Origin: an uncultured Bacteroidia bacterium | GTDB taxonomy: Bacteria; Bacteroidota; Bacteroidia; Bacteroidales; F082 | Direction of reading: 5' to 3' | DNA length: 47,583 nucleotides | Assembly (NCBI GenBank): GCA_902771635.1 | Contig: CACXXW010000004.1 | Location: forward strand, 1 to 47,583 | Shown: piece by piece, positions 17,857 through 44,192 of the stretch | Position numbering within the stretch: position 1 is the stretch's first letter | How the letters are laid out: each line of letters begins with the position of its first letter | The notes under the pieces: generated by a model | The model's input: only the letters and a program-made list of their open reading frames with translations | Database searches by the model: none | What the model was told of the DNA's origin: nothing | Position numbers and translations under genes: made by a program

Positions 17857-17971
17857 CGCTTCGCGTCATTGCGAGGAACGAAGCAAATCGAAGATTCGAC
17901 GAAGTCAATCCAGATAAATAGCGACAATCCTGGATTGCTTCGTCGTTCCTCCTCGCAATGACGCAAAGCGA
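17857..17971. repeat. Dispersed palindromic repeat, family A, copy 2
   Basis: The arms CGCGTCATTGCGAGGAACGA and CCTCGCAATGACGCAAAGCG are near-complementary, and the inner CAATCC..GGATTG region is also complementary. It belongs to the same family as 3821-3942 and 36436-36520. Confidence 0.8.
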
Positions 17972-18003
17972 CGCGGCGCAAAGCGAACCATGGGATAGGT
18001 CCG

Positions 18004-18075
18004 CAAAAAAGTTGCCGAGCAGGGCTGGGTAGCCTGCTACCGCATGCGCCCTCGCCTGCCAACTTTTTTGCCCAT
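18004..18075. repeat. Long-stem hairpin downstream of the first FISUMP gene
   Basis: The arms GCAAAAAAGTTG and CAACTTTTTTGC are perfect 12-bp complements around a GC-rich centre. It lies just past the stop at 18097 on the minus strand and may end that transcript. Together with the two repeats before it, this accounts for the gene-free stretch 17587-18096. Confidence 0.55.
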
Positions 18076-18096
18076 AGCCCGTAACGGAACAAAAGG

Positions 18097-19317
18097 TTAG
18101 TTCTGCCCTGAAGAACGCACTGGGCGGACAGATAGCCCATAATAGCGACCGTAATATTCCACGGCAAAATTGTCCGCATAGAAGAATAAGTACCACGCGT
18201 CGCCCGGGTAGTCTGTGTAGAGCGAACTCGACCAATAGTTGCCGCTACTAACATTGCTGAGATTGCTATTGTCGAAGTAGCCAGCAGCGGGCAGGAAGAG
18301 ACTGTTGCCGTTTGCGGCGGTGAAGAGGAGTCCGTTTACACCGTTCTGGGTCGTCAATGTGCAGGTCGTGTTTTGGTAGAGTTCCTGCCATTCCTCCTTG
18401 GTAGGCATACGCCAGTCTGCACCCCAATTGGCCGTGGCAGCGTCATCCTCGGGCAAGAGGGTGATTAGGTCGTCGGTAAAGCCATTGTAGCCGTAGCTAG
18501 AATTGTTGCAATACTTGGTCAGCATGTCGTTGTCGCCCATGCAGTACTGATAGGTACTCCAATTGTAGGTGTCCTTCGGCTGGGTCTCGCCCCATGCAAA
18601 ATAGTCACCGTAGTCCTCAGGGCTGGCGGCACCCACGTTGCAGGTAGCCCAAAGCAGGCCGCTCGGCAGGCCGAGGTCAACATAGGCGTGGTCATCGCCG
18701 CCGCCTGCCTCGGTGGTGAAGCTCTGCTCGCCTCCGTAGGCCAAGCCTTGGTCGCTCACTACATAAGCACGCACATAGTATGTGGTGTTGGGGTCCAATT
18801 CTTCAAGTGTTCCGCTAAAGCTGCCAATGCCCGTACCATCCGAGGTGTGGTCGCCATCGATGTCGGGATTCGACTCCGTACCCCAGCATACACCACGCAG
18901 GAACACGTGAGTGCCCTCGGGCAAAATCACCATACCACCCACGATGGCACTTGTAGCAGTAATGCCAGTCGGTGTAGATGTGACCACAACATTGGAAGCA
19001 GTTTGTGTAAATGAGAAGTCAACCTCTTCGGTACGCTTCGAATAATACTTATAGCCACAGCCAGGCACCAATTGCGTAACGCCTCCCATCCAGCATCCAT
19101 CGGAATAGACGGAGGATGTGTACTGCGACTTGATGATGTCGCCCTGTGCAGGGGTAAAGTTCCCAAAAGCAGAGGCAATATCCATCGCTTCAGCATTGGG
19201 ATAGCTAATCCAGTTAACACCTGGGTACAATGTAATCGTAATCTGCTGTGCCTTAGCACTCAGGCTTGCCGCCATCATCGCAAGCAAGCCCACCAATAAG
19301 ATAAACACTTTCTTCAT
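18097..19317 (-). CDS. Secreted surface protein with FISUMP C-terminal domain
   Basis: The start at 19317 gives 406 residues, opening with signal peptide MKKVFILLVGLLAMMAASLSA and so avoiding a 17-residue AT-rich extension. The N-terminal module (about 25-105) begins ITITLYPGVNWISYPNAE, a segment common in Bacteroidales surface proteins. A fibronectin-III-like module follows (GITATSAIVGGMV...TTYYVRAYV...QSFTTE). The C-terminal half is a FISUMP domain (YVDLGLPSGLLWATCNVGA, YFAWGE, WRMPTKEEWQELY, YWSSSLYTD, SVRPVR). No T9SS domain was seen. The first ~225 residues are almost identical to those of the neighbouring paralogue (19820-21286). It is flanked by direct copies of repeat family C. Function unknown; surface adhesion is a guess. 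Confidence 0.85.
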   Translation of the reverse strand: MKKVFILLVGLLAMMAASLSAKAQQITITLYPGVNWISYPNAEAMDIASAFGNFTPAQGDIIKSQYTSSVYSDGCWMGGVTQLVPGCGYKYYSKRTEEVDFSFTQTASNVVVTSTPTGITATSAIVGGMVILPEGTHVFLRGVCWGTESNPDIDGDHTSDGTGIGSFSGTLEELDPNTTYYVRAYVVSDQGLAYGGEQSFTTEAGGGDDHAYVDLGLPSGLLWATCNVGAASPEDYGDYFAWGETQPKDTYNWSTYQYCMGDNDMLTKYCNNSSYGYNGFTDDLITLLPEDDAATANWGADWRMPTKEEWQELYQNTTCTLTTQNGVNGLLFTAANGNSLFLPAAGYFDNSNLSNVSSGNYWSSSLYTDYPGDAWYLFFYADNFAVEYYGRYYGLSVRPVRSSGQN

Positions 19318-19350
19318 AACTATTATTTTTAAAAATTGTAATCTAGGGGC

Positions 19351-19358
19351 CAAAAATA
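19351..19358 (-). promoter_or_regulatory. -7 promoter element of the first FISUMP gene
   Basis: The minus strand reads TATTTTTG, 33 bp before the ATG at 19317. Confidence 0.55.
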
Positions 19359-19503
19359 CAAAAAACAATGCTTAGGACAAATAGTCCCTCAAAAAAAGCC
19401 AAAACTCAATGACGCAGGTGTGGGACACAATGTAATGTCAAGATAGGGTGTAGCCCATGATTATGGAAAAAGCGGATAATGCATTTCTATCGTGCAGCAC
19501 CAG

Positions 19504-19585
19504 CCCGTGTCGAAGACACGACCTCCTATATACCCCACACGGCACAGTGTGGGGCTCGCAAACGCGCCTAAAGTCGTAGCATATC
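19504..19585. repeat. Dispersed repeat family C, copy 2
   Basis: This copy runs CGTGTCGAAGACACG, then CCCCACACGGCACAGTGTGGGG, then TCGCAAACGCGCC, aligned with copy 1 at 17754-17836. The rest of the gene-free stretch 19318-19819 holds more degenerate pieces: GTCTACAGT at about 19602 and 19724, a CCCCACACAGC..TATGGGG hairpin near 19742-19766, and CGTGCCTTCGGCACG near 19780. No gene was seen. Confidence 0.7.
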
Positions 19586-19819
19586 CCTACCTCCCGAGTC
19601 TACAGTCTGGTCTGCCCCACACCTACCTGATGCCATGCAGTACCGACACAGCATAGGTACCCCTACACACCATATCCACTGCATCCTGACGCATCTGTAG
19701 CGTGCCTCCAGCACGCCCAGCCTAGTCTACAGTGTGGTAAACCCCACACAGCAGAGCTGTATGGGGTAAATAAAGTATCGTGCCTTCGGCACGAGGATGA
19801 CGATAGTCAACACATGAAA

Positions 19820-21286
19820 TCAGTTCTCAGCAGGGGCAACAAGGCGCACACTCTGACCGTTGCCGCGGCGGCTTTCGTCAGTGCCGAGGTTCGCGTTGTC
19901 GAAGGATATGCCCCGCGCGGAGTCTGTACTAAAGTACGAGGACGACCAGTAATAGCCGTAATCGGCCACTAAGCAGACCGAAGTTCCGTAACGGTAGCCC
20001 GCTGAAGGCAGGAAGACCGCACCGGCTTGCTCCAAAGTGTTCCATTGAGAAGAGGTTATCACATTGCTGCTGTAGCTGACACCATTAGTATTGGCGTTGC
20101 TCAGATTATAGGTGTCGCTGTTCCAGTCGTCGGGCAACAGGATTACGCCATTCACATCGTTCACTTTGGCCTTGGCAAAGCGGACGCCCGAGGTAGTGCT
20201 TCGATTGTAGAAGACATAGTTCCATTCTGGTTGGGTCAACGTTCTCCACTGGTTGGCTTGGTTGCCACCATTGCTTAACGGATTGTAAACGCCCCAGTCG
20301 GCCATACCGGTTTGGTTGTACAGGTTGGAAGATAAGCTACCATAGGCATAATAGTCGCTATAACTGGTGCTTGTGCTCCAAGGCTGGTAGCAGTTGGCTC
20401 CGTGGTTGCAGCCGCTCGTGCCCCAGCCGAAGAGGTCTATCCAACCACTGTAGGTTTGGGAGATGTTCCTGTTGTCACTTCCAGTAACTGTACCTCCAAC
20501 CAATCCATAATTATCTGGAGTTTGTGTTCCAACATAATCCCATTGGTTTTCAGCAAAACGCCAAGTGTTTGTGCTGGCTTGGTACTGCAGGTTTCCTTGC
20601 GAGAAATACACTTGGTCGCCACTATTGTTTATGGAGAACTTGCCGTTTATGGCTCCTATGGGAGCGCTGCCACCTGCCTCGGTGGTGAAGCTCTGCTCGC
20701 TGCCGTAAGCTAAACCGTGGTCGCTCAATACATAAGCACGCACATAATAGGTGGTTGCAGGGTTCAGGCCTTCCAACGTGCTGCTAAAGCTGCCAATACC
20801 CGTGCCATCCGAGGTATGGTCACCATCGATGTCGGGATTCGACTCCGTTCCCCAACACACGCCACGCAGGAACACATGGGTACCCTCGGGCAAAATCACC
20901 ATGCCACCCACGACGGCGCTTGTAGCAGTAATGCCAGTCGGCGTGGCCGTGGCCACAGCATTGGAAGCAGGTTGGGCAAATGAGAAGTCAACCACTTCGG
21001 TTCGATTGGAATAATACTTATAGCCGCTGCCAGGCACCAAATGCGTAACGCCTCCCATCCAGCCTCCATTGGAATAGACGGAAGAGGTGTACTGCGACTT
21101 GATGATGTCGCCCTGTGCAGGGGTAAAGCTCCCAAAAGCCGAGGCAATATCCATCGCTTCAGCATTGGGATAGCTAATCCAGTTAACACCTGGGTACAAT
21201 GTTATCGTAATCTGCTGTGCCTTAGCACTCAGGCTTGCCGCCATCATCGCAAACAAGCTCACCAATAAGATAAATACTCTTTTCAT
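19820..21286 (-). CDS. Secreted surface protein, mosaic paralogue of the FISUMP gene
   Basis: The start at 21286 gives 488 residues with signal peptide MKRVFILLVSLFAMMAASLSA. The N-terminal module and fibronectin-like module match the upstream paralogue up to QSFTTEAGG (about residue 225), after which the sequence is unrelated. The C-terminal 260 residues contain GKFSINNSGDQVYFSQGNLQYQ, WRTLTQPEWNYVF, FAKAKVNDVNGVILLPDDW, VFLPSAGYRYG, YYWSSSYFSTDSARG and SVRLVAP. This is the longer Bacteroidetes DUF1566/FISUMP-like type, often on secreted or surface proteins. No T9SS domain was seen. The sharp boundary between shared and private parts indicates module exchange after duplication. Confidence 0.85.
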   Translation of the reverse strand: MKRVFILLVSLFAMMAASLSAKAQQITITLYPGVNWISYPNAEAMDIASAFGSFTPAQGDIIKSQYTSSVYSNGGWMGGVTHLVPGSGYKYYSNRTEVVDFSFAQPASNAVATATPTGITATSAVVGGMVILPEGTHVFLRGVCWGTESNPDIDGDHTSDGTGIGSFSSTLEGLNPATTYYVRAYVLSDHGLAYGSEQSFTTEAGGSAPIGAINGKFSINNSGDQVYFSQGNLQYQASTNTWRFAENQWDYVGTQTPDNYGLVGGTVTGSDNRNISQTYSGWIDLFGWGTSGCNHGANCYQPWSTSTSYSDYYAYGSLSSNLYNQTGMADWGVYNPLSNGGNQANQWRTLTQPEWNYVFYNRSTTSGVRFAKAKVNDVNGVILLPDDWNSDTYNLSNANTNGVSYSSNVITSSQWNTLEQAGAVFLPSAGYRYGTSVCLVADYGYYWSSSYFSTDSARGISFDNANLGTDESRRGNGQSVRLVAPAEN

Positions 21287-33690: not shown

Positions 33691-35220
33691 ATGAAAAAAC
33701 TATTCTTGACCCTAACGGCCATCTTGGCTTTTGTGGCCACAACGAATGGACAATTGATTCCCGAAGGCGAATATGTCATCAGATTCGCTCAAGGTCCCGA
33801 CTACGTGCTGACCTTGAAGGACAGCAAGGCAAGTGATGCCAACCGTGTTCACCTTTGGAAGTGGAGAAACGACAATTCACAAAAATGGAAGGTAACGCAC
33901 AACAACGGAAAAATAGTCATCCGCAGCATGGTCAACAACAACTATGTGCTAGATGTAAAGGGATCCAACTTCAGCAACGGTGCCGAAGTCTACATCCACA
34001 ACTATCATGGCCACAACAACCAACTTTGGATTTCTGAACGCATGAGCGATGGTTCATATATTCTGAAGACGGTGGGGAACCCAAACTATTGTATTGACCT
34101 GAAAAATGGTATTGCCAAAAACGACAACAATATTGAGCTTTGGCAAGTGCATCAACAATTCCAAGAAAAATGGATATTTGAGAAGACCTCCAAAATGCCA
34201 AAACCAGTTCAAGCCACAACTGTCGACATTGCTGACGGTGAATATGTAATCAAGTTCGCCAAGAATCCTGATTACGTGTTGACACTGAAGGATGGCAAGG
34301 CCAGCAATACCAATCCTGTCCATCTTTGGAAGTGGAAAAACGACAATTCCCAAAAATGGAAGGTGACCCACACGAACGGCAAAATGGTCTTCCGTAGCAT
34401 GGTGAACAACAATTATGTGTTGGATGTAAAAGGCTTAGCCTACGCTGATGATACGCAAGTCCAACTCTATGAGTATCGAAGTGCCACCAACCAACTTTGG
34501 ATTCCTGAGCAACTGAGCAATGGTTCATACGTGTTGATGACAGCAGGTAACTCGGACTACTGCCTCGACCTGAATGATGGCATTACAAAGAACAATAACG
34601 TGATTCAAATTTGGAGAGCGCACAAAGGATACCAGCAACAATGGCTCATCGAGAAAGCGCCCACACAAACCAACTCAAACGGCATTGCCGGTGTTTACGA
34701 CACCGATTTCAACGAGATGACCTTGCAAGTCAACGGCAATAAGGTGACTGGCACTTACAATTGGCACGACGGCCGCATTGAGGGAACACTCTCAGGACAC
34801 ACGCTCACTGGATTGTGGACTCAATCAAACGGCAAGGGGCGGCTTGTGATGGAATTCAACTCCGACTTCTCAGCCTTTACCGGCAAGTGGGATTACAACG
34901 AAGCCGAGCCATCAAAGAAATGGAGCGGAACGAAAAAGACAAGTATCGCGCCCATAGCGAACGTTGCGGGAGTTTACGACACCGATTTCAACGAAATGAC
35001 CTTGAAAGTCAACGGCAATAAGGTAACTGGCACATACGATTGGAAAGATGGCCGTATCGAAGGAACACTCTCAGGACACACGCTCACTGGACGGTGGACA
35101 CAATCAAACGGCAAGGGGCGGCTTGTAATGGAATTCAACTCCGACTTCTCGGCCTTTACCGGCAAGTGGGACTACAACGATGCCGAACCATCAAGGAAAT
35201 GGAGCGGAACGAAAAAATAA
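33691..35220 (+). CDS. Secreted protein with two ricin-type beta-trefoils and a duplicated C-terminal module
   Basis: This 509-residue protein has a signal peptide (MKKLFLTLTAILAFVATTNG). Two homologous beta-trefoil (RICIN-like) domains follow at about 23-165 and 180-325, each with Q-x-W-type motifs (NSQKWKV, NNQLWIS or TNQLWIP, QEKWIF or QQQWLIE) typical of sugar-binding trefoils. The C-terminus carries two copies of a 93-residue module (AGVYDTDFNEMTL...VNGNKVTGTY...RIEGTLSGHTLTG.WTQSNGKGRLVMEFNSDFSAFTGKWDYN.AEPS.KWSGTKK) that are almost identical at the DNA level (starts 34690 and 34969, 279 bp apart). No T9SS domain or lipobox was found. A carbohydrate-binding exported protein is likely. 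Confidence 0.88.
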   Translation: MKKLFLTLTAILAFVATTNGQLIPEGEYVIRFAQGPDYVLTLKDSKASDANRVHLWKWRNDNSQKWKVTHNNGKIVIRSMVNNNYVLDVKGSNFSNGAEVYIHNYHGHNNQLWISERMSDGSYILKTVGNPNYCIDLKNGIAKNDNNIELWQVHQQFQEKWIFEKTSKMPKPVQATTVDIADGEYVIKFAKNPDYVLTLKDGKASNTNPVHLWKWKNDNSQKWKVTHTNGKMVFRSMVNNNYVLDVKGLAYADDTQVQLYEYRSATNQLWIPEQLSNGSYVLMTAGNSDYCLDLNDGITKNNNVIQIWRAHKGYQQQWLIEKAPTQTNSNGIAGVYDTDFNEMTLQVNGNKVTGTYNWHDGRIEGTLSGHTLTGLWTQSNGKGRLVMEFNSDFSAFTGKWDYNEAEPSKKWSGTKKTSIAPIANVAGVYDTDFNEMTLKVNGNKVTGTYDWKDGRIEGTLSGHTLTGRWTQSNGKGRLVMEFNSDFSAFTGKWDYNDAEPSRKWSGTKK

Positions 35221-35259
35221 ATGTGTTTTTGCCGTGTAAGCTATGCAAAAATAAAACAT

Positions 35260-35299
35260 CACGAATTCCGTGACGGAGTCCTCCGCTGCGGAATTCGTG
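35260..35299. terminator. Hairpin between the beta-trefoil gene and the corrinoid operon
   Basis: The perfect 11-bp arms CACGAATTCCG (35260-35270) and CGGAATTCGTG (35289-35299) enclose an inner GGAG/CTCC pair. It lies between convergent stops at 35220 and 35302 and could serve both. Confidence 0.6.
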
Positions 35300-35301
35300 T
35301 C

Positions 35302-36552
35302 TTATTCCTCAACAAAATGATAGTATTTTGGCTGGTAGTCAGCCCATTCGTCCGTTAGCAATTCTGGGTGGAAGAAATGGATGAAGTCGGCTAAGAGCAA
35401 ATCGGGCTCGCACTGCGACTGCTCGAAATAGCCAGTAGAGAGGATGTCACAAACGATGATTTGATGGTTTTTGTAGGCATCGAAAAGCGGATAGACGGGA
35501 CTCTCCTTAGCCAAAGCTTCGTAGGTCATCGGGAAAGGATTGGAGTTGATGACGCGCCAATAATCTGCATGTTGTGCCTTCGCCAAAATGCTCTCTGCAT
35601 CCATGGGAACGCTGGCCGTCGAAGGGTTGTCCTTCCAAATATAGTCGGCACCAGCATCGGCGAAGAGCCTGGCAATATAGCTGCGCCCGCCAGCCACATA
35701 CCATTGTCCGTTGAAGGCCAGGTCGGAGAACACCGTGGGACGGTGTTCCACATCAGCACAAAGCGTGGAAAGGGCATTATAGCGTCGCTCAATGTCATCG
35801 AACCAAGCATCGGCCATGTCCTCGCAGCCTGCCAGAATGCCTATGACACGAATCCATTCGGCACGGCCCAAAGGCGTGTTTTCCATGTAATCGGCAAAAG
35901 GAAACAGCACTGCTCCCGTGACATTCAAGCCGCCTTGGTTGCCATCGAAATAGGGCGAATAGAGCAAAGCATCCGGTTGCAGTTGAATCATCCTTTCAAT
36001 ATCGGCAGAGGCTTCTGTACCAATGTCGTAGACCTTTTGCTGCGCCAACAGCGAGCGCATGGTGCTGTCGGTCACGAAACGGCCTTCAAGGATGCCTTTC
36101 ACACGGTCGATTTCACCCAAACGCAGGAAAACAGACCATTGCGTGGCAGAGAACGAAATCACCGTCTTCACCGGCACATGCAACACTCCTGCCACATCCC
36201 TGTCAACCGCGGCTGTCGTGTCCTTGACCAAGGCAAACTTGCCCAACGACAAGGTGGTATCCCAAGGGCAAATCACCTCCAACAAGTAGCCGTAATCCTT
36301 TTGGCAAACCGTGACATTGCGGGCATAGCGCATAAGGTTATCCACCTCGACCTTTTCTTCCTTGACTTGAGTGTTGAACCTACAAGCCGATACTGAAAAC
36401 AGCAACACAATAAAGAGCATCGCTCCAATTATGTGTCGCTTTGCGTCATTGCGAGCGAAGCGCGGCAATCCAGATATGGTGTTTCCTTCCTGGATTGCTT
36501 CGTTCCTCGCAATGACGGAATCCGTCAGTATTGTACGATTATTGTTTTCCAT
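35302..36552 (-). CDS. BtuF-like ABC transporter substrate-binding lipoprotein (corrinoid or siderophore)
   Basis: The mature part is a class III (helical backbone) binding protein: LMRYARNVTVCQKDYGYLLEVICPWD, VPVKTVISFSATQWSVFLRLGEIDRVKGI, IQLQPDALLYSPYFDGN, YVAGGRSYIARLFADAGADYIWKDN and PEILAKAQHADYW-like blocks. These proteins bind vitamin B12, heme or Fe-siderophores for an ABC importer. The last-gene position in a cobalamin-riboswitch operon favours corrinoid. The lipobox is FSVSAC. Starting at the ATG at 36552, which overlaps the CWC gene, gives 416 residues but reads through a dispersed repeat. A downstream ATG at 36420 gives 372 residues with a signal lacking a basic N-region. Which start is used is unresolved. 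No BtuC/BtuD genes follow. Confidence 0.85.
   Translation of the reverse strand: MENNNRTILTDSVIARNEAIQEGNTISGLPRFARNDAKRHIIGAMLFIVLLFSVSACRFNTQVKEEKVEVDNLMRYARNVTVCQKDYGYLLEVICPWDTTLSLGKFALVKDTTAAVDRDVAGVLHVPVKTVISFSATQWSVFLRLGEIDRVKGILEGRFVTDSTMRSLLAQQKVYDIGTEASADIERMIQLQPDALLYSPYFDGNQGGLNVTGAVLFPFADYMENTPLGRAEWIRVIGILAGCEDMADAWFDDIERRYNALSTLCADVEHRPTVFSDLAFNGQWYVAGGRSYIARLFADAGADYIWKDNPSTASVPMDAESILAKAQHADYWRVINSNPFPMTYEALAKESPVYPLFDAYKNHQIIVCDILSTGYFEQSQCEPDLLLADFIHFFHPELLTDEWADYQPKYYHFVEE
36436..36520. repeat. Dispersed palindromic repeat, family A, copy 3, inside a coding frame
   Basis: GTCATTGCGAGCGAAGCGCG and its near-complement (CTTCGTTCCTCGCAATGACG) enclose CAATCCAG..CTGGATTG. It sits in frame between the CWC gene overlap and the lipoprotein signal of the BtuF-like gene, encoding VIARNEAIQEG and LPRFARNDAKRH. 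Confidence 0.8.
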
Positions 36553-36706
36553 TGATTTCCTCCAAACAGTCTTTGCACAGGCAATCATTGTAATGTTCCT
36601 TCAGATAGGCTTTTGTGGCTTCGGTGAGCTTCACCTTGACGCACCAACAGTCGATGGAATGCACGCATTCGAAGGTTTTTCCGCAACGGGGACAGGTTTT
36701 TGTCAT
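36539..36706 (-). CDS. Small CWC-type Cys-rich protein (probable metal-binding)
   Basis: The minus strand encodes a 55-residue protein from ATG 36706 to TAA 36539, too short for standard ORF cutoffs. It begins MTKTCPRCGKTFEC, continues with DCWCVKVKL and ends CLCKDCLEEINGKQ. The arrangement CPxCGxxFxC...CWC...CLCxxC is that of the Cys_rich_CWC family, which is expected to bind zinc. Eight of the 55 residues are Cys. Its stop overlaps the ATG at 36552 of the BtuF-like gene. It lies inside the riboswitch-controlled operon, after a 106-bp gap holding two hairpins. Confidence 0.85.
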   Translation of the reverse strand: MTKTCPRCGKTFECVHSIDCWCVKVKLTEATKAYLKEHYNDCLCKDCLEEINGKQ

Positions 36707-36747
36707 TTGTTTAGTTGTTGATTGTTTAATTGTTTAATTGTTAGAAA

Positions 36748-36799
36748 GTTCGGGCGGATTTGAAATCCGCCCGAACCGTGTTGGGGATTTGCAATCCCC
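36748..36799. repeat. Two adjacent hairpins inside the corrinoid operon
   Basis: GTTCGGGCGGATTT / AAATCCGCCCGAAC (36748-36776) is a perfect 14-bp stem around one base. GGGGATT / AATCCCC (36783-36799) is a 7-bp stem with loop TGC. They lie between the BtuG-like gene and the CWC gene, where they could end, attenuate or stabilise the message. Confidence 0.75.
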
Positions 36800-36812
36800 G
36801 AAAGAATATCAA

Positions 36813-37997
36813 TTATTTAAACAACATTGCACTGGGAAATAGTCCAGCCTCGAACGATGATAGCAACACTCCATCGGAGGTATAGCGATACACGATACCA
36901 TTGACCGTCGGATTGGCGATGCAGGAGATATACAAGTCTCCCGAGTTGGGATCGACGGCCATGTTATAGAACGTTTTCCCATCGGCTGGAATACAAAACG
37001 ACTCAGAGAAAGAAAGCGTTTCCACATCAAAACGACGCACTTCGCTATCCGAAGACATGCCATATTCATCCATCTCACTCACAATGATATACATATATCT
37101 TCCTTGCGGGTCAGATTTCATGTTTGAAGCAGAATAGCCCATGTTTTCACCCGTCTGAGGATCGACAAAATCTTCAAAGACGTAGCGGCATTGGGCGGTC
37201 TTGAGTTGCGGGTCGATCTCCCACAACGAAGGCTCTTCGCAAATCGTGGGGTCATCGATGTGTTCCACGTCCCATGCACGACCTTCGCAAAGCACCCACA
37301 CATGGCCGTTCTTGTCGACCGTCATCGTGTTGGGCTCCTTCCCCACTGCGATGTCAGCGACTTTTACGTCATTATTCGCGTCAATCACTTGCACCGTATT
37401 GTAACTCTCATGCGAATTAGCATTAACATAATAATACGACCAGTTGCTGACATACAGCTCATTGCCGACCTGTACCATCTTTTCCGTGGTCTTGCCAGTC
37501 TCGACAAACCCGCAATGGCTCATGTCTTGAGGATTGACAATCCAAAGGCCTGTTCCCATCAAATCACTGACGTAGGCCTTGTTGGGAGCCACAAAGTGCA
37601 TCTCGCGCGGCGAATAGAAATCCAACAACTTAAACGGCTTTGTCATATCAATCCGAATCGTATTGGCATCCACCTTATAAATCAAGTTGCTGTTGTTGAC
37701 GACAATGTAGAGTTTACCTTCTGCCATTGCAAGACTTTGCCCCACATCGCCGATAGGTGCGTTGTTAGCCTTGTAGAACAAAAAGCTTGCCGCTGTGTCA
37801 GCCACAGGGTCATAAAACGAAAGCGACGCGTTGGAAGACATGTAAACGCCTTCGTTGAGAACATACACGCCTTTGAGATTGACCGGATGCGGCTTTATTG
37901 TATCTGAAGGGTCAACGGGAGTCGGTGTCGGGTCGGGCTTGCAGGAGAACAATGCCACCACCAACAGAGCCAACAGAAACAGTTTCGTCTTTTTCAT
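36813..37997 (-). CDS. YncE/BtuG-like beta-propeller lipoprotein
   Basis: This 394-residue lipoprotein has signal peptide MKKTKLFLLALLVVALFSC with Cys19 as the lipid site, then a Pro/Thr-rich tether (KPDPTPTPVDPSD). The rest is a seven-bladed-propeller-type sequence: GVYVLNEGVYMSSNASLSFYDP, MAEGKLYIVVNNSNLIYKVD, ELYVSNWSYY, VIDANNDVKVADIAVGKEPNTMTVDKNGHVWVLCEG, and RYMYIIVSEMD. It belongs to the YncE/DUF5074 kind that includes BtuG, the surface cobalamin-binding partner of BtuB in Bacteroides. Given its place behind a cobalamin riboswitch, a BtuG-type corrinoid-capture role is the best inference. It follows the T9SS gene after 16 bp. Confidence 0.85.
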   Translation of the reverse strand: MKKTKLFLLALLVVALFSCKPDPTPTPVDPSDTIKPHPVNLKGVYVLNEGVYMSSNASLSFYDPVADTAASFLFYKANNAPIGDVGQSLAMAEGKLYIVVNNSNLIYKVDANTIRIDMTKPFKLLDFYSPREMHFVAPNKAYVSDLMGTGLWIVNPQDMSHCGFVETGKTTEKMVQVGNELYVSNWSYYYVNANSHESYNTVQVIDANNDVKVADIAVGKEPNTMTVDKNGHVWVLCEGRAWDVEHIDDPTICEEPSLWEIDPQLKTAQCRYVFEDFVDPQTGENMGYSASNMKSDPQGRYMYIIVSEMDEYGMSSDSEVRRFDVETLSFSESFCIPADGKTFYNMAVDPNSGDLYISCIANPTVNGIVYRYTSDGVLLSSFEAGLFPSAMLFK

Positions 37998-38013
37998 ATC
38001 AGTTTGTGTTTAT

Positions 38014-38994
38014 TCATTGTTTCACAACACGTTTCGTAACAGTTTTTCCGTCAGCGTTGACGCGAACGAAATAAATGCCTTGGTTCAAGGCACCCATGTC
38101 AACGATATCGGATGTGGAAACCAAAACCTGCTGCCCCACAAGATTGTAAATCTCGACGGATTGCAAGTCTTCGGCTTTCACCATCAGTCTGTCTCTCAAG
38201 GGATTGGGGTACACGGCAATGGCTTCTTCCGCATTTTCGGGCACATCGTTATGGGCGATGTCATGAATCACGCCGACGGCATCAAGGTCGAAGCCGCTGG
38301 AAGCGAATGGTGTGGGCCATGGGTCGTTGACGATATGGCCTTCCGAGTCTTTGGTGGCATATTCAGGATCGATGTTGCCTACCACGTCGACAATACGGAC
38401 ATGGGTGACACGATTCTTGTCTAAGAGCTCGTTGTCCTCCACTTCATCCAGATCGAACGGAGTGCCATAGAACGCCCCGTATTTGCTGGCGAAGTTATGG
38501 AGTTGTGCAGGAACAATAGAGCCTGCATTACCCAATTGTTCATCGATCTGGACATAGGTTACAGCTGGAAAACGGAAGAAATTCTCGCCGTCAGAACTGA
38601 CCTCCACAAAGCCAAGCTCAAGTGCCCAAGTATCTGGATTCACAGCATTGGCAAAACCGTTCTCGAACACGGCAAAGTCGGGGCCAGGACCATTATATAT
38701 CGGCGAGGCGAAAGTCAACACGGCGTTGCCTCCGTCGCCAAGGCTGACAATATCATAGGTGCCACCTGGCATGCCCAAGGCGAGCGAATCGGCGCCATAC
38801 GATGCGAGGCCGCTTTCCGGCCTATCAATACGCATCGGGCCGCGCTCTACTGTGCATCCGGTAGCCCACGCTACGAATGCCGAAGAGTCGGCGTGCATGG
38901 CTGTGGTGCCGGGTTGATCTTGCGCAGGCGCAAACTGTGCCCACAGCTCAACCGGCACCATAGCCAATAACAGGATGGAAATCATTTTTATCAT
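38014..38994 (-). CDS. T9SS-exported cell surface protein of the corrinoid operon
   Basis: This 326-residue protein has a signal peptide ending VELWAQ. The body has conserved blocks found in an uncharacterised bacterial cell-surface family: SLGDGGNAVLTFASPIYNGP, GPDFAVFENGF, LELGFVEVSSDGENFFRFP, GTPFDLDEVED, VTHVRIVDVVGNIDPEY and SSGFDLDAVGVIHDI. The beta-rich, Asp/Gly-rich pattern suggests a calcium-stabilised jelly roll. The C-terminal ~75 residues (IAVYPNPLRDRLMVKAEDLQ...VRVNADGKTVTKRVVKQ) form a T9SS type A sorting domain, so it should be exported and attached to the surface. Its ATG overlaps the stop of the preceding gene by four bases. Confidence 0.85.
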   Translation of the reverse strand: MIKMISILLLAMVPVELWAQFAPAQDQPGTTAMHADSSAFVAWATGCTVERGPMRIDRPESGLASYGADSLALGMPGGTYDIVSLGDGGNAVLTFASPIYNGPGPDFAVFENGFANAVNPDTWALELGFVEVSSDGENFFRFPAVTYVQIDEQLGNAGSIVPAQLHNFASKYGAFYGTPFDLDEVEDNELLDKNRVTHVRIVDVVGNIDPEYATKDSEGHIVNDPWPTPFASSGFDLDAVGVIHDIAHNDVPENAEEAIAVYPNPLRDRLMVKAEDLQSVEIYNLVGQQVLVSTSDIVDMGALNQGIYFVRVNADGKTVTKRVVKQ

Positions 38995-40241
38995 TTTACC
39001 ACGAGTTTGGCAGTACGCACGGCGCTGTCATCGCTGACGGTGATGAAGTACATACCTGCATTCAGCATCTCGGTGCTGATGCGGACTTGCTCGCCAGCCT
39101 TTGCTTCGACGCTTTGCTCGTTGACCAGACGGCCTTGGATGTCGTAGACAGAAACAGTGGTCATTCCAGCATTGGTGATAGTCACAAAGGCCTCGCTGAT
39201 GGCAGGATTCGGATAAACAGCCAGAGTGTTGGACTGGTTTTCATTCACGCTCGTGTTGTTGATAGCGGGTTCAATGGGTTGTTCCCAAGCGATGGTGGTC
39301 CAGTCGGCAGACATGACACAGCAAGCAACACCACCAATCTTCACAAAGTCGTTGTTGTGAATCGGTTCCTCAGCCATCATGTTCATACCCATCAAGCCAT
39401 TCACGCTATGCATGGGAACATCATAATCAGGATCACCCCACTGTGCATCCGGGTTGGGGCACATCGTCAGGTCGTATTCATTATCCACATAAGTGATGTT
39501 GGAGGGAGCGTCACCGATGACCGTCAAGCGGCTGTCGGCAGCTGCAATAGCAGTAAGAGCTTGGAAAACAGTGGCATCACCATCGAAACGATAGCCCCAT
39601 GCCAGAGCAGCTTCAGTGTGGCTGCACCAACTGAGGGCAACCACAACTTCGTTTTCGCCTTCGCCAACCCAAAACAGGATCTCGTCAGCTGAAATAGTGG
39701 CGTCAACGACTGCATTCGGGTCGGTGGCAGGAATAATCTCTGTAGTCCAAGAGATGGTGGTCCAGTCATCGGACATAATGCTGCAAGCAACACCACCAAT
39801 CTTCACAAAGTCGTCGTTGTGAATCGGTTCTTCAGCCATCATGTTCTGACCCATCAATCCATTCACGCTATGCATGGGAACATCATAATCGGGATCACCC
39901 CACTGGGCATCCGGGTTGGGGCACATCGTCAGATCGTATTCGTCATCCACATAGGTAATGTTGGTGGGAGCAGAACCGATTACTGTCAAGCGGCTGTCGG
40001 CAGCTGCAATATCAGTAAGAGCTTGGAAAACAGTGGCTTCACCATCGAAACGGTAGCCCCATGCCAAAGCTGTTTCAGTGTGGCTGCACCAGCTGAGGGC
40101 AACCACAACCTCGTTTTCGCCCTCGCCAATCCAGTATTGGATGTCGGCAGGATCGATAGTAGCATCTTGTTGTGCAAACAAATTGGTCGTAAACAGACCG
40201 AAGATTCCCATAAGGAATGCTAAAGTAAAGATTTTACGCAT
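38991..40241 (-). CDS. T9SS-exported protein with two tandem AWGYRFDG domains, first gene of the cobalamin-riboswitch operon
   Basis: This 416-residue protein has a signal peptide ending TTNLFAQ, then two domains of about 140 residues (about 29-167 and 184-322) that are nearly identical (about nine residues in ten by eye). Each contains WIGEGENEVVVALSWCSHTE, LAWGYRFDG, LTMCPNPDAQWGDPDYDVPM, HSVNGLMG and FVKIGGVAC. Related single domains occur in surface proteins of other phyla; no function is established to my knowledge. A T9SS sorting domain ends the protein (LAVYPNPAISEAFVTI...MYFITVSD...LVVK). Conserved Cys, His and Met in each repeat are candidate metal or corrinoid ligands. The next gene overlaps by four bases. 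Expression should fall when cobalamin binds the leader. Confidence 0.88.
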   Translation of the reverse strand: MRKIFTLAFLMGIFGLFTTNLFAQQDATIDPADIQYWIGEGENEVVVALSWCSHTETALAWGYRFDGEATVFQALTDIAAADSRLTVIGSAPTNITYVDDEYDLTMCPNPDAQWGDPDYDVPMHSVNGLMGQNMMAEEPIHNDDFVKIGGVACSIMSDDWTTISWTTEIIPATDPNAVVDATISADEILFWVGEGENEVVVALSWCSHTEAALAWGYRFDGDATVFQALTAIAAADSRLTVIGDAPSNITYVDNEYDLTMCPNPDAQWGDPDYDVPMHSVNGLMGMNMMAEEPIHNNDFVKIGGVACCVMSADWTTIAWEQPIEPAINNTSVNENQSNTLAVYPNPAISEAFVTITNAGMTTVSVYDIQGRLVNEQSVEAKAGEQVRISTEMLNAGMYFITVSDDSAVRTAKLVVK

Positions 40242-40361
40242 AATAATATAATTTTAGGTTTGACATTCAATCCATTACATTAAAATGCTCGCGGAAATGG
40301 AGGGTACACCTTAATTTATATAAGGAAAGCCAGCTCTTGTCCCGAAAGCTTCGTTTCAGCG

Positions 40362-40518
40362 ACAGGCGGCAGGTCTTCTGACTTACTCCTTTTGGCTGAC
40401 CGCCTTCCCGAAAGAACAGGTTTTCAGTGGCATTGTGGCCAGCGTGAAGAGCTTACAGCAGCGGGAACTGTCCGGGATTTGCACCCGATTCCCTATTGAG
40501 CCTCGCGGCACCGCTTAT
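40362..40518 (-). ncRNA. Cobalamin riboswitch
   Basis: Read on the minus strand, the leader carries the cobalamin riboswitch hallmarks in order: GGTGCCGCGAGGC, AATAGGGAATCGGGTG, AAATCCCGGACAGTTCCCGC, CTGTAAGC, and the B12 box GCCACTG followed by a stem and AAGTCAGAAGACCTGCCGCC. It begins just after a TATCTTTG promoter and lies about 120 nt ahead of the first gene at 40241. That intervening stretch should hold the expression platform; I could not assign a terminator or a ribosome-binding-site-masking stem in it. Confidence 0.95.
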
Positions 40519-40524
40519 CGGCGG

Positions 40525-40532
40525 CAAAGATA
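40525..40532 (-). promoter_or_regulatory. -7 promoter element of the riboswitch operon
   Basis: The minus strand reads TATCTTTG directly before the riboswitch, placing transcription start at the 5' edge of the aptamer. It is divergent from the toxin-antitoxin promoter 44 bp away. Confidence 0.65.
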
Positions 40533-40610: not shown

Positions 40611-40814
40611 ATGGCAACGCTTACAATAAAATATGATGGACGTAACCCTATTTTCAAGCAAGTCCTTGATTTGTTTGTTGCTCTTGGAGGTACTATCTCT
40701 GATGAAAAAAGTGAATCGTCAAATTCTATGATGATCGAAAAAATCAGACAGGGACGTGAAGATTTCAAGAATGGCAATTACAAAGTCATCAAAACCGAGG
40801 ATATATGGAAATAG
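40611..40814 (+). CDS. Antitoxin of a YoeB-type toxin-antitoxin pair
   Basis: This 67-residue protein has a short beta-rich N-terminus (MATLTIKYDGRN), a helix (FKQVLDLFVALGG), a polar linker and a C-terminal basic/acidic helix (MIEKIRQGREDFKNGNYKVIKTEDIW). It resembles the small partners (DUF2683-like in some annotations) found before YoeB toxins in Bacteroidota, with the conserved C-terminal toxin-binding segment ending in IW. It overlaps the toxin start by ten bases, the usual order for type II systems. It is expected to neutralise the toxin and to repress the operon. Confidence 0.82.
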   Translation: MATLTIKYDGRNPIFKQVLDLFVALGGTISDEKSESSNSMMIEKIRQGREDFKNGNYKVIKTEDIWK

Positions 40815-41071
40815 CCTATACTCCAAACGCATTAAAGGATCTTGAATGGTGGAAGGCCAATGGTAGCGAAACAGCGAAAAAAAAGATTTCTTCTCTGCTG
40901 CGCGAAATGGAGGTTCATCCCCGGACTGGAACTGGAAAGCCAGAAATACTCACAGGAGACTACACAGGTTGTTGGTCTCGAAGGATTAACAAGAAAGACC
41001 GAATTATTTATGAAATCCATGATGAAATAATTCTGGTATTGGTTCTTTCTATGCGCGGACACTACAATTGA
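40805..41071 (+). CDS. yoeB: YoeB-family ribosome-dependent mRNA interferase toxin
   Basis: This 88-residue RelE/YoeB-fold toxin cleaves mRNA at the ribosomal A site. The residues equivalent to E. coli YoeB catalytic Glu46, Arg65 and His83 are visible as E47 (GKPEIL), R66 (KKDRIIYE) and H86 in the terminal RGHYN. The family block DYTGCWSRRINKKDRIIYEI is intact, so the toxin appears functional. It starts inside the last codons of the antitoxin gene. The stop is only 16 bp before the large T9SS protein gene. Confidence 0.92.
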   Translation: MEIAYTPNALKDLEWWKANGSETAKKKISSLLREMEVHPRTGTGKPEILTGDYTGCWSRRINKKDRIIYEIHDEIILVLVLSMRGHYN

Positions 41072-41087
41072 AAAAAACAGCTACACA

Positions 41088-44000
41088 ATGAAAAAACTGT
41101 CATTATTTATCACCTTTTTGTTAATGGCCTTGGGAATGGCTCAAGCCCAAGACGTTTATTTCTCTGGCAATGGCAACAATATCGGCAAAATCTGGAAAAA
41201 CGACACGCTGATTTATAGCATCTCCGATACAGCCATGGTCATGCTAACCGATATGAAAGTGGCCAACGACAGCACCATTTATAGCGCAGGCTATAATTAT
41301 TCCAACTTTCGGGGTCATGTTTGGTTGAACGACTCGGTTCTATTTATGACCGACACCCCAACTTTCATCGAGCGGATGATGCCCAATGACAACGGTTGGA
41401 CAGCAGTCGGCGAAAACAAGGTTTGGCAAAACGGCGAGATTCTCTATGAATATAGCATTGACAGCAACACCGTTTGCAACCTTTATGCCTTGGCTGTTGA
41501 TGACCTCACAGGTGACGTATATGCAGGTGGTTCCATCGTTACCCCAGGCGTATATGCCTGCGTATGGAAAAACGACACCATACTTTGGCAATGTGCGGGC
41601 TGGTCGGAAGTCAACGACCTCTACTTTGATGGTGACAACCTCTATGCAGCAGGTTTCATCTATGGCGCTGAGTCAATCAATGGCGTAGTATGGCAAAACG
41701 ACTCCATCATTTTCCAAATCGAAGGGGGCGACATCACGGAAATCACCGCATACGACGGAAGCCTGTATTGGGCTGGAGTCTCAGCCTCCGACAACACTGC
41801 ATACATTTGGCAAGACGGCGAGGTGCTATTTTCCCATGTTGACGTAAACATTACGGCTTTGTACGTCAATGAATATGGTGTTTTTTATGCTGGTATTGAC
41901 GATGACATTGCCACCGTATGGAAAGACGGTGAAGTCCTCTATGAACCTGAAGACTGCGAAAGCATCACGGCGATTGCAGTGCTGCCCACTGAGACACCGC
42001 AACCTGGTCATGAGCCCAAACTCCTGCCTTGGTTCGATGGTTTCGAGGTCGACAGCACCTGGGCCGACTGGACCATCCTTGACTTCGACGGTAACACCGA
42101 AATCGCATGGGAGCGCAGTGATGACGAAGCCGCCACTGGCGACTTCAGCGCCCGTCACCTCGCCTGCGACAACATCCAGGAAGGCTGGCTCATTACTCCT
42201 CCCCTATACCTGAATCTCTACTGCGACTCCACTTGGATGAGTTTCAAGACCATGGAAGTCAATCCGAGCAACTACACCAACAGCAGCCTCTTGATTTCGA
42301 CCACAGGCACCCAACTCTCCGATTTCACCGAGATTTGGTCACAAGACAACCCATCCGACACTTGGGATTCCATCCACATCGACCTTTCTGCCTACCAAGG
42401 CGACACCATCTATTTGGCCTTCAAATACACTGGACATCACGGCCACGATTGGTACATTGACGACATAAACGTTGAAGAAGCACTTACCCTGTATGATATC
42501 ACCGTCGAAAGCAGCAACCCGGATTGGGGCACCGTCAGCGGTAGTGGCAGCTATCCTCACGGCGAAACCGTCCAAATCGAAGCCCATCCCAACATTGGCC
42601 GTGAATTCCTATGCTGGGACGATGGCATCGCCAGCAACCCCCGCGACATTGTTGTCCTCCAAGACAGCACCTTCGTCGCTTTGTTCGCTATTAGCCAATA
42701 CACCATCGAAGTCATCTCCGACAATTCCATGATGGGCACAGTGACTGGCGGCGGCACCTATCAATACGGCGACACCATCGAGATTGCCGCCACGCCTTAC
42801 ATCGGATTCGAGTTCATCAGTTGGACCGACGGCAACACTGACAACCCGCGCACCATTATCGTCACAGAAAACGCGACATACACCGCGCATTTCGGCTTAC
42901 AGCAATGCGTCATCAAGACCCAAGTCACCCCCGAAGGTGCAGGCACCGTCGATGGTGGCGGCACCTACGACTATGGCTCCACCATCCAGCTATTGGCCCA
43001 CAACAACACAGGTTATCGCTTCCAGATGTGGGATGACGGCAACCTTACCAACCCGCGCTCCGTTTTCGTGGAAGGTGATGCCTCTTATACAGCCGTGTTT
43101 GAGCCACTCCCATACGAAATCACTGCCGAATGCGACCCCGTGGAAGGTGGCACAGTGAGCGGAGCAGGCACCTATTATTATGGCACTACCGCCACGCTAA
43201 CCGCCACACCCAACGAGAACTACATCTTCCTCTGCTGGAGCGACGGCATCGCCAGCAACCCGCGCTCCGTCACTGTGACAGGCAACGCCAACTACAAAGC
43301 CTTGTTCCATTTCAATGGCACGACCGAATACACTATAACCGTGGCGGCCAACAACCCATTGCTGGGTACCGTCACAGGCGGAGGCATCTACCCTGAAGGA
43401 AGCATCGCCGAAATCAGCGCAACACCTTATGAAGGTTCTGTCTTTACGGGCTGGGATGACGGCAACACCGACAACCCGCGCAGCATCGTAGTGACGCAGG
43501 ACATGGAATTCATAGCTGTGTTCACCAAGACAGAGACCTACACCATCACGGTAAGGGCTGAGAGTCCGCTGTTGGGCTCCACCTATGGCAGTGGTGAATA
43601 CCCCCTCAACTACGTTGTCAACATTGGAGCCTCCCCCGCGACGGGCTATTATTTCACTGGTTGGCAAGACGGCAACATGGACAACCCCCGCACCATCATC
43701 GTGACCGGAGATGCCGAGTACGTCGCCTCGTTCGCCCGGGAACCCGTCCTGACCTATACCGTCACCGTACTGCATGATGAAGCACAAGGTCTCATCCTCG
43801 GTGCCGGTACCTATATCGCAGGCAGCATCGCCACCATCGCCGCCATCCCTGCCGATGGCTTCATATTCGTGAGATGGAGCGACGGAACCACCGACAACCC
43901 CAAGGAAATCCTTGTCGATGAAGACATCGTGTTGGCAGCCTTCTTTGAATTCACAAGTGTCGATGAGAACGGCTTAGAAAGCGTCAGCCTCTACCCCAAC

Positions 44001-44192
44001 CCTGCCAACGACAAGCTCTTCCTAGAAGGTCTTGAAGAAGATTGTGAAATCAGCATCTACAACGCCATGGGCATGAAAGTCAAAACCATGACACTGCAAG
44101 GCGACGCTGAAATCAACATCAGCGAATTGCCTGCTGGCCTCTACCTTCTCCGTATCGGCAACCAGCGCACTTTGAAATTCATCAAGGAATAA
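41088..44192 (+). CDS. Large T9SS-exported protein: propeller-like repeats, cleaved-adhesin/MAM-like domain and seven InlB-B-type repeats
   Basis: This 1034-residue protein has a signal peptide ending MAQAQ. Residues ~22-300 hold about seven units with V-W-K-N/D-x-x-x-L (IWKNDTLIYS, VWLNDSVLFM, VWQNGEILYE, VWKNDTILWQ, VWQNDSIIFQ, IWQDGEVLFS, VWKDGEVLYE), a propeller-like series. A cleaved-adhesin/choice-of-anchor J domain follows (~310-465: WFDGFEV, WLITPPLYL, LAFKYTGHHGHDWYIDDINVE). Then come seven repeats of ~68 residues (~467-955), each with GTVxGxGxYxxG, W-x-D-G-x-x-x-N-P-R and a C-terminal F, as in InlB-B/Flg_new repeats. A T9SS type A domain ends it (SLYPNPANDKLFL...). It is probably a surface adhesin. 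Confidence 0.9.
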   Translation: MKKLSLFITFLLMALGMAQAQDVYFSGNGNNIGKIWKNDTLIYSISDTAMVMLTDMKVANDSTIYSAGYNYSNFRGHVWLNDSVLFMTDTPTFIERMMPNDNGWTAVGENKVWQNGEILYEYSIDSNTVCNLYALAVDDLTGDVYAGGSIVTPGVYACVWKNDTILWQCAGWSEVNDLYFDGDNLYAAGFIYGAESINGVVWQNDSIIFQIEGGDITEITAYDGSLYWAGVSASDNTAYIWQDGEVLFSHVDVNITALYVNEYGVFYAGIDDDIATVWKDGEVLYEPEDCESITAIAVLPTETPQPGHEPKLLPWFDGFEVDSTWADWTILDFDGNTEIAWERSDDEAATGDFSARHLACDNIQEGWLITPPLYLNLYCDSTWMSFKTMEVNPSNYTNSSLLISTTGTQLSDFTEIWSQDNPSDTWDSIHIDLSAYQGDTIYLAFKYTGHHGHDWYIDDINVEEALTLYDITVESSNPDWGTVSGSGSYPHGETVQIEAHPNIGREFLCWDDGIASNPRDIVVLQDSTFVALFAISQYTIEVISDNSMMGTVTGGGTYQYGDTIEIAATPYIGFEFISWTDGNTDNPRTIIVTENATYTAHFGLQQCVIKTQVTPEGAGTVDGGGTYDYGSTIQLLAHNNTGYRFQMWDDGNLTNPRSVFVEGDASYTAVFEPLPYEITAECDPVEGGTVSGAGTYYYGTTATLTATPNENYIFLCWSDGIASNPRSVTVTGNANYKALFHFNGTTEYTITVAANNPLLGTVTGGGIYPEGSIAEISATPYEGSVFTGWDDGNTDNPRSIVVTQDMEFIAVFTKTETYTITVRAESPLLGSTYGSGEYPLNYVVNIGASPATGYYFTGWQDGNMDNPRTIIVTGDAEYVASFAREPVLTYTVTVLHDEAQGLILGAGTYIAGSIATIAAIPADGFIFVRWSDGTTDNPKEILVDEDIVLAAFFEFTSVDENGLESVSLYPNPANDKLFLEGLEEDCEISIYNAMGMKVKTMTLQGDAEINISELPAGLYLLRIGNQRTLKFIKE

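Follow-up and report, generated by a model that had tools for sequence, protein, structure and literature searches.

A candidate T9SS-delivered outer layer of corrinoid scavenging encoded behind a cobalamin riboswitch in an uncultured Bacteroidia bacterium

The stretch of DNA analysed here (the window) comprises 47,583 nucleotides of contig CACXXW010000004.1 of an uncultured Bacteroidia bacterium (assembly GCA_902771635.1) and carries on its minus strand a five-gene operon preceded by a cobalamin riboswitch. We consider it likely that this operon provides the outer layer, delivered by the type IX secretion system (T9SS), of a chain that scavenges vitamin B12 (corrinoid). The genes, named in the order of transcription, are g5 (38991–40241), g4 (38014–38994), a gene for a BtuG-like beta-propeller lipoprotein (36813–37997), a gene for a CWC mini-protein (36539–36706), and a gene for a BtuF-like lipoprotein (35302–36420). 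The original prediction, made from the sequence alone, described five same-strand genes joined by four-base overlaps or short gaps. All five minus-strand frames are present behind the riboswitch, between positions 35302 and 40241, but the g5/g4 junction is the sole four-base overlap; the gaps before the BtuG-like and CWC genes are 16 and 106 bases long, and the BtuF-like gene probably begins 118 bases after the CWC gene. The longest BtuF frame extends to position 36588 and overlaps the CWC gene, the likely start at 36420 (M57) having been chosen by eye from a lipoprotein signal. A terminator-like hairpin with a T run follows the last gene (35257–35275, minus strand); since the window contains eight such sites against 5.9 expected in shuffled sequences, the support for this one is weak.

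The riboswitch aptamer (40351–40530, minus strand) matches Rfam family RF00174 over its full length with 107.9 bits (gathering threshold 31.5, E-value 3.4e-26) and is the single cobalamin riboswitch ahead of the operon, in agreement with the original prediction. The predicted promoter was also recovered: the sequence TATCTTTG (40525–40532, minus strand), a -7-type box abutting the 5' end of the riboswitch, is a perfect match to the pattern TAnnTTTG, which we take to be the Bacteroidota promoter box, and TTTGC in this region is invariant across 10 aligned riboswitches. In the whole window this pattern occurs 39 times against 22.0 expected, a number reached in none of 100 shuffles, and a sigma-70 scan was uninformative for this bacterial group. 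Folding of the leader gave a z-score of -2.48, and the fold left transcriptional and translational control undistinguished. In Bacteroides thetaiotaomicron, comparable promoters are repressed by cobalamin (PMC12751083). By analogy, the operon would be expressed when corrinoid is scarce.

The last three products fall into the families originally proposed for them. The BtuG-like protein, with a lipobox read by eye, matches DUF5074 (PF16819) with 80.9 bits (cut-off 27.2) and solved BtuG-type chains with E-values down to 8.2e-44 in a phmmer search, including 4.3e-42 to 8p97_B; the related entry 8p98 also contains a chain named BtuB. The CWC mini-protein matches Cys_rich_CWC (PF14375) above the cut-off, with 48.7 bits, and a relative of it adjoins g4, BtuG or BtuF in 22 of the 136 loci searched (L068–L147 and L162–L217). 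The BtuF-like protein matches Peripla_BP_2 (PF01497) with 79.8 bits (cut-off 27.5) and has no sequence match in the PDB up to an E-value of 1. The B12-binding family DUF4465 (PF14717) was not matched by any of the five operon proteins.

Sorting domains of T9SS type A, claimed earlier for the first two products, were detected in both with TIGR04183 (cut-off 23 bits): residues 342–416 of the 416-residue g5 (38994–39218, minus strand) scored 52.3 bits and residues 261–326 of the 326-residue g4 (38017–38214, minus strand) scored 51.6 bits. Pfam family PF18962 was also above its cut-off in both. Upstream of its tail, g5 consists of two tandem domains, residues 26–165 (39747–40166) and 180–319 (39285–39704), which are 86% identical, as expected from the duplication noticed originally. 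The family of this domain, marked by the motif AWGYRFDG, is present in 61 open frames of the collected loci, some of which overlap, with a mean column identity of 40%; 50 of 55 DUF4430-type frames end in a T9SS tail, and the remaining five are cut. The g5 gene is present in a single copy in its own genome.

Two lines of analysis point to the nature of the repeated domain. DUF4430, a C-terminal domain of transcobalamins (PMC4350170), was matched by 6 of 24 aligned domains of the g5 family, the best with an E-value of 2.3e-6. Among ten proteins searched, an orthologue from locus L084, 35% identical to g5 over the whole protein, scored 44.0 bits in two stretches (cut-off 23.8); another, from L118, remained below the cut-off, and eight gave no match. 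The AlphaFold model of g5 domain 2, with a predicted local distance difference test score (pLDDT) of 88.3 and a predicted template modelling score (pTM) of 0.84, was compared with the PDB using Foldseek. Ranks 1 and 2 went to the two chains of 3u7z, which comes from Ruminococcus gnavus and is titled putative metal binding protein, and ranks 3 to 18 were occupied by animal cobalamin carriers, namely transcobalamin, intrinsic factor, haptocorrin and the isolated transcobalamin beta domain. These 18 matches had probabilities of 0.57–1.00 and E-values of 0.014–0.41, which makes the evidence for the fold moderate, and the next one was unrelated (probability 0.41). Since the structural list is consistent and the Pfam match is independent of it, we regard as good, despite the individually weak E-values, the assignment of the modelled domain to a DUF4430-like group within the beta-grasp domain family of intrinsic factor and transcobalamin. 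The alpha/alpha toroid domain of cobalamin carriers was not found by Pfam in either g5 or g4. An identification of g5 as BtuJ or BtuH was rejected, as PF14717 was not matched and the g5 profile gave no significant match to six Bacteroides-type lipoproteins.

A transcobalamin-like clade was defined within the beta-grasp superfamily (SLBB) by Burroughs and colleagues in 2007 (PMC1796856). Besides animals, its carriers are low-GC Gram-positives, planctomycetes and, less often, euryarchaea, and B12 scavenging was proposed from gene context for its extracellular bacterial members in Gram-positives (PMC1796856). In four further loci (L019, L021, L022 and L034), BtuH-type genes adjoin long frames that start with a DUF4430-like domain, and in L021 a riboswitch sits between the two.

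The second T9SS protein, g4, is the constant member of the system. Its conserved N-terminal domain (38260–38934, minus strand) has a mean column identity of 63% over 30 sequences and reaches no Pfam family above the cut-off; the sole NCBIfam family listed for it, LIC_13355, stayed below the cut-off (21 of 30 members). Like g5, g4 is a single-copy gene in its genome. A T9SS tail is present on 158 of 159 g4 frames, the remaining one being cut by a contig end; these frames are distinct sequences but perhaps not distinct genes, because the loci overlap in part.

For comparison with BtuH, a hidden Markov model (HMM) was built from three lipoproteins of the Bacteroides type as seeds; one of these matches PDB chains 8blw_B at 2.4e-67 and 7biz_A (BtuH2) at 5.2e-36. 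When the g4 HMM was run against 1999 distinct frames, each 100 residues or longer, the 159 g4 frames came first (E-values below 1e-20), followed, ahead of everything else, by all eight BtuH-type proteins (1.5e-4 to 0.058). In the reverse search, g4 frames directly followed the eight BtuH-type proteins, with E-values from 4.8e-5. BtuH is thus the reciprocal nearest family to g4 in this set, and a block of the form SLG.GG..DF is common to both. A profile–profile comparison aligned 58 columns at 36% identity, with a probability of 63.9% and an E-value of 6.6e-5. In the Foldseek search with g4, the matches listed were mostly jelly rolls of beta-glucuronidases, and 8blw_B stood at rank 14 (E-value 4.7e-4) among such generic jelly rolls. 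Unlike BtuH, g4 has neither immunoglobulin-like domains nor a lipobox and carries a T9SS tail instead. Because these domains and the lipid anchor are missing, and because profile searches of the PDB miss BtuH, we speak of a remote relation and not of membership: judged from sequence comparison, g4 is probably distantly related to the C-terminal, B12-binding domain of BtuH. The anchors of the eight BtuH-type proteins themselves vary, with three labelled as T9SS-tailed, three with a lipobox and two with neither.

Loci containing relatives of g4 were collected in two sets. The first comprises the best 80 of at least 535 confirmed g4 relatives (among at least 589 stretches) and therefore leans to close relatives; the second comprises 53 loci from g4 matches ranked below the first 30 in 295 Bacteroidales genomes. 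No identical g4 proteins are shared between the sets. The titles of the first set name Bacteroidales, Flavobacteriales, Chitinophagales and others, including one Chlorobiota and one Saccharospirillaceae assembly, whose names may be wrong since the assemblies are of uncultured organisms. With a riboswitch model (R1) built from 10 sequences, six from the first set and four from the own genome, a riboswitch was detected in 69 of the 80 loci; in all 69 it lies on the g4 strand and upstream of g4, at a median distance of 1.5 kb from the g4 domain. One of these matches (L098) is weak, at 27 bits, and Rfam's own model confirmed the riboswitch in all seven loci tested. In the second set the riboswitch is on the g4 strand in 45 of 53 loci, upstream in 44 and downstream in one (L204), so that a same-strand riboswitch precedes g4 in 113 of the 133 loci of both sets. 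Among 20 control loci, which lack g4 and contain proteins resembling g5 by the sorting domain only, a single riboswitch was found, before a T9SS-tailed DUF4465 (BtuJ) gene; another control locus (L233) has two BtuB-labelled frames and no riboswitch. A chance association of riboswitch and gene was rejected on the basis of these numbers (upstream and on the same strand in 69 of 69 and 44 of 45 matched loci, with one riboswitch in the 20 controls).

Within the first set, the gene content of the 69 operons with a riboswitch links g4 to B12 uptake genes. With operons ended at gaps of more than 500 bases, g4 is found in 68 of them (that of L087 is hidden by this rule), a BtuG label in 51, a BtuB label in 40, a DUF4430-domain gene in 24, BtuJ in 20 and BtuF in 14. 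A T9SS-tailed domain of a capture type, that is DUF4430, BtuJ or BtuG-like, is the immediate upstream neighbour of g4, or part of a fusion with it, in 92 of the 133 loci. The 50 such loci of the first set comprise DUF4430 (19, and three more fused), BtuJ (16) and BtuG-like domains (12), and the 42 of the second set comprise BtuJ (22, and seven fused), BtuG-like domains (six), DUF4430 (three, and three fused) and one locus with both DUF4430 and BtuG-like domains. The fusions thus include six of DUF4430 with g4, three per set, and seven of g4 with BtuJ. Conservation of the gene order behind cobalamin riboswitches in relatives, set beforehand as a test of the prediction, is borne out across the g4 loci, and these counts make the window one instance of a general pattern consisting of a riboswitch, an interchangeable T9SS-tailed capture protein, the constant g4 and uptake genes.

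The gene labels in the loci come from HMMs seeded within these same loci, with several seeds picked by eye. Compared with Pfam, all five BtuJ-labelled proteins and the seed from contig C61 of the own genome reached DUF4465, and two of three T9SS-tailed BtuG labels and one Bacteroides-type seed reached DUF5074; the third (L198) did not, so the label 'BtuG-like propeller' is a loose one. The BtuC, BtuD and BtuF seeds from L090 reached FecCD, ABC_tran and Peripla_BP_2, families which are not specific to B12. NrdD seeds reached NRDD, and the NrdG seed reached no family at 0.001, the name being given by eye. The BtuB label was checked for the window's own BtuB alone.

That BtuB had been thought absent, and this claim was disproved: a BtuB-type TonB-dependent receptor is encoded in the same window, apart from the operon, at 1061–2929 on the minus strand. 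It is 57% identical to the BtuB within a relative's version of this operon and matches the solved chains 8bmx_C (E-value 1.4e-61) and 8p98_A (4.4e-61), the latter named BtuB. The reported absence of BtuC and BtuD holds for the operon, where neither adjoins BtuF, but on contig C26 of this genome BtuC- and BtuD-type genes lie side by side. In L084, from Bacteroidales bacterium Phil6, the order is a 758-residue gene, a 242-residue gene, the riboswitch, g5, g4, BtuB, BtuG, nrdD and finally a small gene, named nrdG by eye. Relatives of the first two of these genes, with 72% and 42% identity, immediately precede BtuB in the window; the riboswitch, g5, g4 and BtuG lie 32 to 37 kb from it, together with the CWC and BtuF genes. 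Two genomes of the same genus, each 99% complete (L216–L219), have one riboswitch for BtuB–BtuG and another for g5–g4. The differences between these arrangements point to splitting and rearrangement of the locus within this group.

The host assembly, in which the window lies on contig C4, has 3.02 Mb in 269 contigs and is 77% complete; in the genome scan, its nearest named relatives are assemblies of uncultured Bacteroidales or Bacteroidia, and several of these have names that refer to the rumen or to ruminants. The T9SS machinery is present as judged by SprA (SprA_N, 550.6 bits, cut-off 27), and so is the B12-dependent reductase NrdJ. Three further cobalamin riboswitches of this genome precede an NRDD gene, a DUF4465 gene and fibronectin-type frames. 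The first (contig C42, L007:424-3312) precedes the gene of an anaerobic ribonucleotide reductase (NRDD, 344.4 bits), an enzyme present here in addition to the B12-dependent NrdJ. The second (contig C61, about 17894–21044; L004, L005 and L006) precedes a DUF4465 (BtuJ-type) frame with 165.2 bits which ends without a sorting domain, and the next, overlapping frame ends in one; this gene is possibly broken or mis-assembled. The third, on the same contig (L005:11261-15565), precedes two overlapping frames of fibronectin-type surface proteins.

Taken together, the recurrence of the riboswitch before g4, the presence of BtuG and BtuB in the operons, the tailed capture domains, the fold of g5, the probable relation of g4 to BtuH, the B12 scavenging predicted for the same fold clade in Gram-positives, and SprA and NrdJ in the genome argue for the operon as the T9SS-delivered outer layer of a corrinoid scavenging chain. 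In such a chain, scarcity of corrinoid would permit expression through the riboswitch; signal peptides would carry g5 and g4 over the inner membrane, and the T9SS over the outer membrane. The tandem DUF4430-like domains of g5 would then capture corrinoid on the cell surface or in the medium, and g4, as the constant partner, would either bind corrinoid itself or pass the cargo on. From there the cargo would move to the BtuG-like lipoprotein and BtuB, across the outer membrane and, in the periplasm, to BtuF and the BtuC/BtuD-type importer. The riboswitch-controlled, T9SS-dependent outer layer originally proposed is thus partly supported overall, its core being supported by comparative genomics; the proposal had missed BtuB in the window, the kinship of g5 with the beta-domain family of intrinsic factor and transcobalamin, and that, probable and remote, of g4 with BtuH.

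Several observations weigh against this interpretation. The window's own g5 repeats gave no DUF4430 match in the Pfam search, no Foldseek E-value for the modelled repeat is better than 0.014, and no B12 protein came up when the PDB was searched with profiles of the g5 domain. The same searches with the g4 domain returned no B12 protein and no BtuH, and the g4–BtuH relation rests on that 58-column block aligned at 63.9% probability. No riboswitch was found beside BtuB in the window. Among the g4 loci, 20 of 133 are without an upstream riboswitch; 12 of these, L204 included, have less than 3.8 kb of DNA before g4, but the other eight have at least 8 kb, and the Rfam search found no riboswitch in any of them. 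Finally, 41 of the 133 loci have no T9SS-tailed capture domain directly before g4, which is the first gene of the operon in 17, follows an untailed BtuG or BtuJ in 14 and another gene in eight, and has no upstream gene within the sequence covered in two.

One alternative shares much of this scheme and deserves serious consideration, although we would not favour it: a single T9SS protein, g5 or g4, may bind corrinoid, with the other giving structural support or a docking point that keeps the binder at the surface or at the BtuB–BtuG complex. Both the higher conservation of g4 (63% mean column identity compared with 40% for the g5-type domain) and its persistence while the capture fold changes would suit an adaptor, and BtuL of B. 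thetaiotaomicron shows no cobalamin binding despite its place in a B12 operon (PMC12751083). However, the nearest family to g4 outside its own is the BtuH B12-binding domain.

Another possibility, in which both proteins take part in binding, is that g5 and g4 form a bacterial split intrinsic factor, their DUF4430-like and BtuH-like domains clamping one corrinoid from two sides and the T9SS displaying the clamp on the surface or releasing it as a corrinoid carrier able to diffuse. We consider this unlikely, but if true, the two domains would act like the toroid and beta-grasp domains of the animal carriers. In that case g4 would be the universal half, with the other half swapping among DUF4430, BtuJ and a BtuG-like propeller across Bacteroidota, and the six DUF4430–g4 and seven g4–BtuJ fusions would be natural one-chain versions.

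It is rather improbable that the DUF4430-like domains bind some other small ligand, such as a metal, another cofactor or a glycan, the control by B12 merely reflecting a need tied to B12 status. The title of 3u7z, the top structural match, would fit such a role, as would the diverse soluble ligands proposed for the beta-grasp superfamily (PMC1796856), but the genes neighbouring g5 are those of cobalamin uptake and the structural matches at ranks 3 to 18 are cobalamin carriers. It is very hard to credit that a chance rearrangement brought g5 and g4, as generic adhesins or other surface proteins of the T9SS, behind a cobalamin riboswitch: BtuB has been split off in this genome and another cobalamin riboswitch does precede fibronectin-type frames, but against this stands riboswitch linkage in 113 of 133 g4 loci, compared with a single case among 20 T9SS-tail controls, where the riboswitch precedes a BtuJ gene.

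The T9SS-delivered outer layer favoured here can be compared with the cobamide uptake loci of B. thetaiotaomicron, which encode BtuB, BtuG, BtuH, BtuJ, BtuK and BtuL (PMC12751083, PMC8941943, PMC10404256). Common to both are a cobalamin riboswitch, a BtuG-type propeller lipoprotein, a BtuB-type receptor and extra extracellular capture proteins. In B. thetaiotaomicron the latter are lipoproteins, whereas in the window two are T9SS-tailed, one of these is DUF4430-like, and BtuB lies outside the operon. The likeness of g5 to intrinsic factor, transcobalamin and haptocorrin concerns the beta-domain family, through the Pfam match of the orthologue, and the fold, through Foldseek; unlike intrinsic factor and transcobalamin, g5 has tandem copies, a T9SS tail and no toroid domain that could be found. 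BtuJ-type DUF4465 proteins occupy the operon slot before g4, or are fused to g4, in other loci; DUF4465 is a separate Pfam family, described in print as a jelly roll.

BtuG, BtuH and BtuJ are B12 binders of Bacteroides (PMC10404256, PMC8941943, PMC12751083, PMC6143338). DUF4465 proteins, a B12-binding family often found near TonB receptors and DUF5074 proteins, were called lipoproteins in more than 70% of cases and periplasmic in the rest (PMC13398666). A cobalamin riboswitch before a TonB-dependent transporter appears in a paper that also names type IX secretion (PMC9723704). Of the six open-licence papers mentioning DUF4430, PMC4350170 alone has B12 binders as its subject, judged by title. 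The motif IPR026444 is taken here to be the T9SS tail. This C-terminal targeting motif was reported in 229 of 824 DUF4465 members (PMC12751083), so that sorting motifs on BtuJ, another B12-binder family, are already in print, a point which the original proposal had also missed. T9SS-tailed DUF4430 proteins, the g4 family and their pairing were not found among the matches listed for the open-licence PubMed Central literature, subscription papers being outside this scope.

The known surface capture of B12 in Bacteroidota is by lipoproteins of gut Bacteroides; the loci described here suggest that many Bacteroidota lineages have a second route beside it, which runs through the T9SS, is linked to riboswitches and includes g4 as a conserved partner. 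They also indicate that bacteria, too, would compete for B12 with the fold seen in intrinsic factor and transcobalamin. Should g4 and g5 prove to bind corrinoid, a function could be assigned to many proteins so far recognised by nothing but their T9SS sorting domain, and the relationship of animal B12 carriers to bacterial scavengers would become directly testable.

Some features of the surrounding sequence may be added. Between the CWC gene and the BtuF gene there is a palindromic repeat (36434–36527) whose 22-nucleotide arms are 82% complementary and 50 nucleotides apart; the long BtuF frame reads through it. Divergent from the riboswitch, a YoeB-type toxin gene is encoded on the plus strand (40611–41071; TIGR02116, 76.6 bits, cut-off 51.8), beside a small partner gene which matches DUF2683 just below the cut-off. 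The operon also has two surface-type neighbours on the plus strand, a ricin-B-lectin-like protein (33691–35220) and a T9SS-tailed choice-of-anchor J protein with InlB-type repeats (41088–44192).

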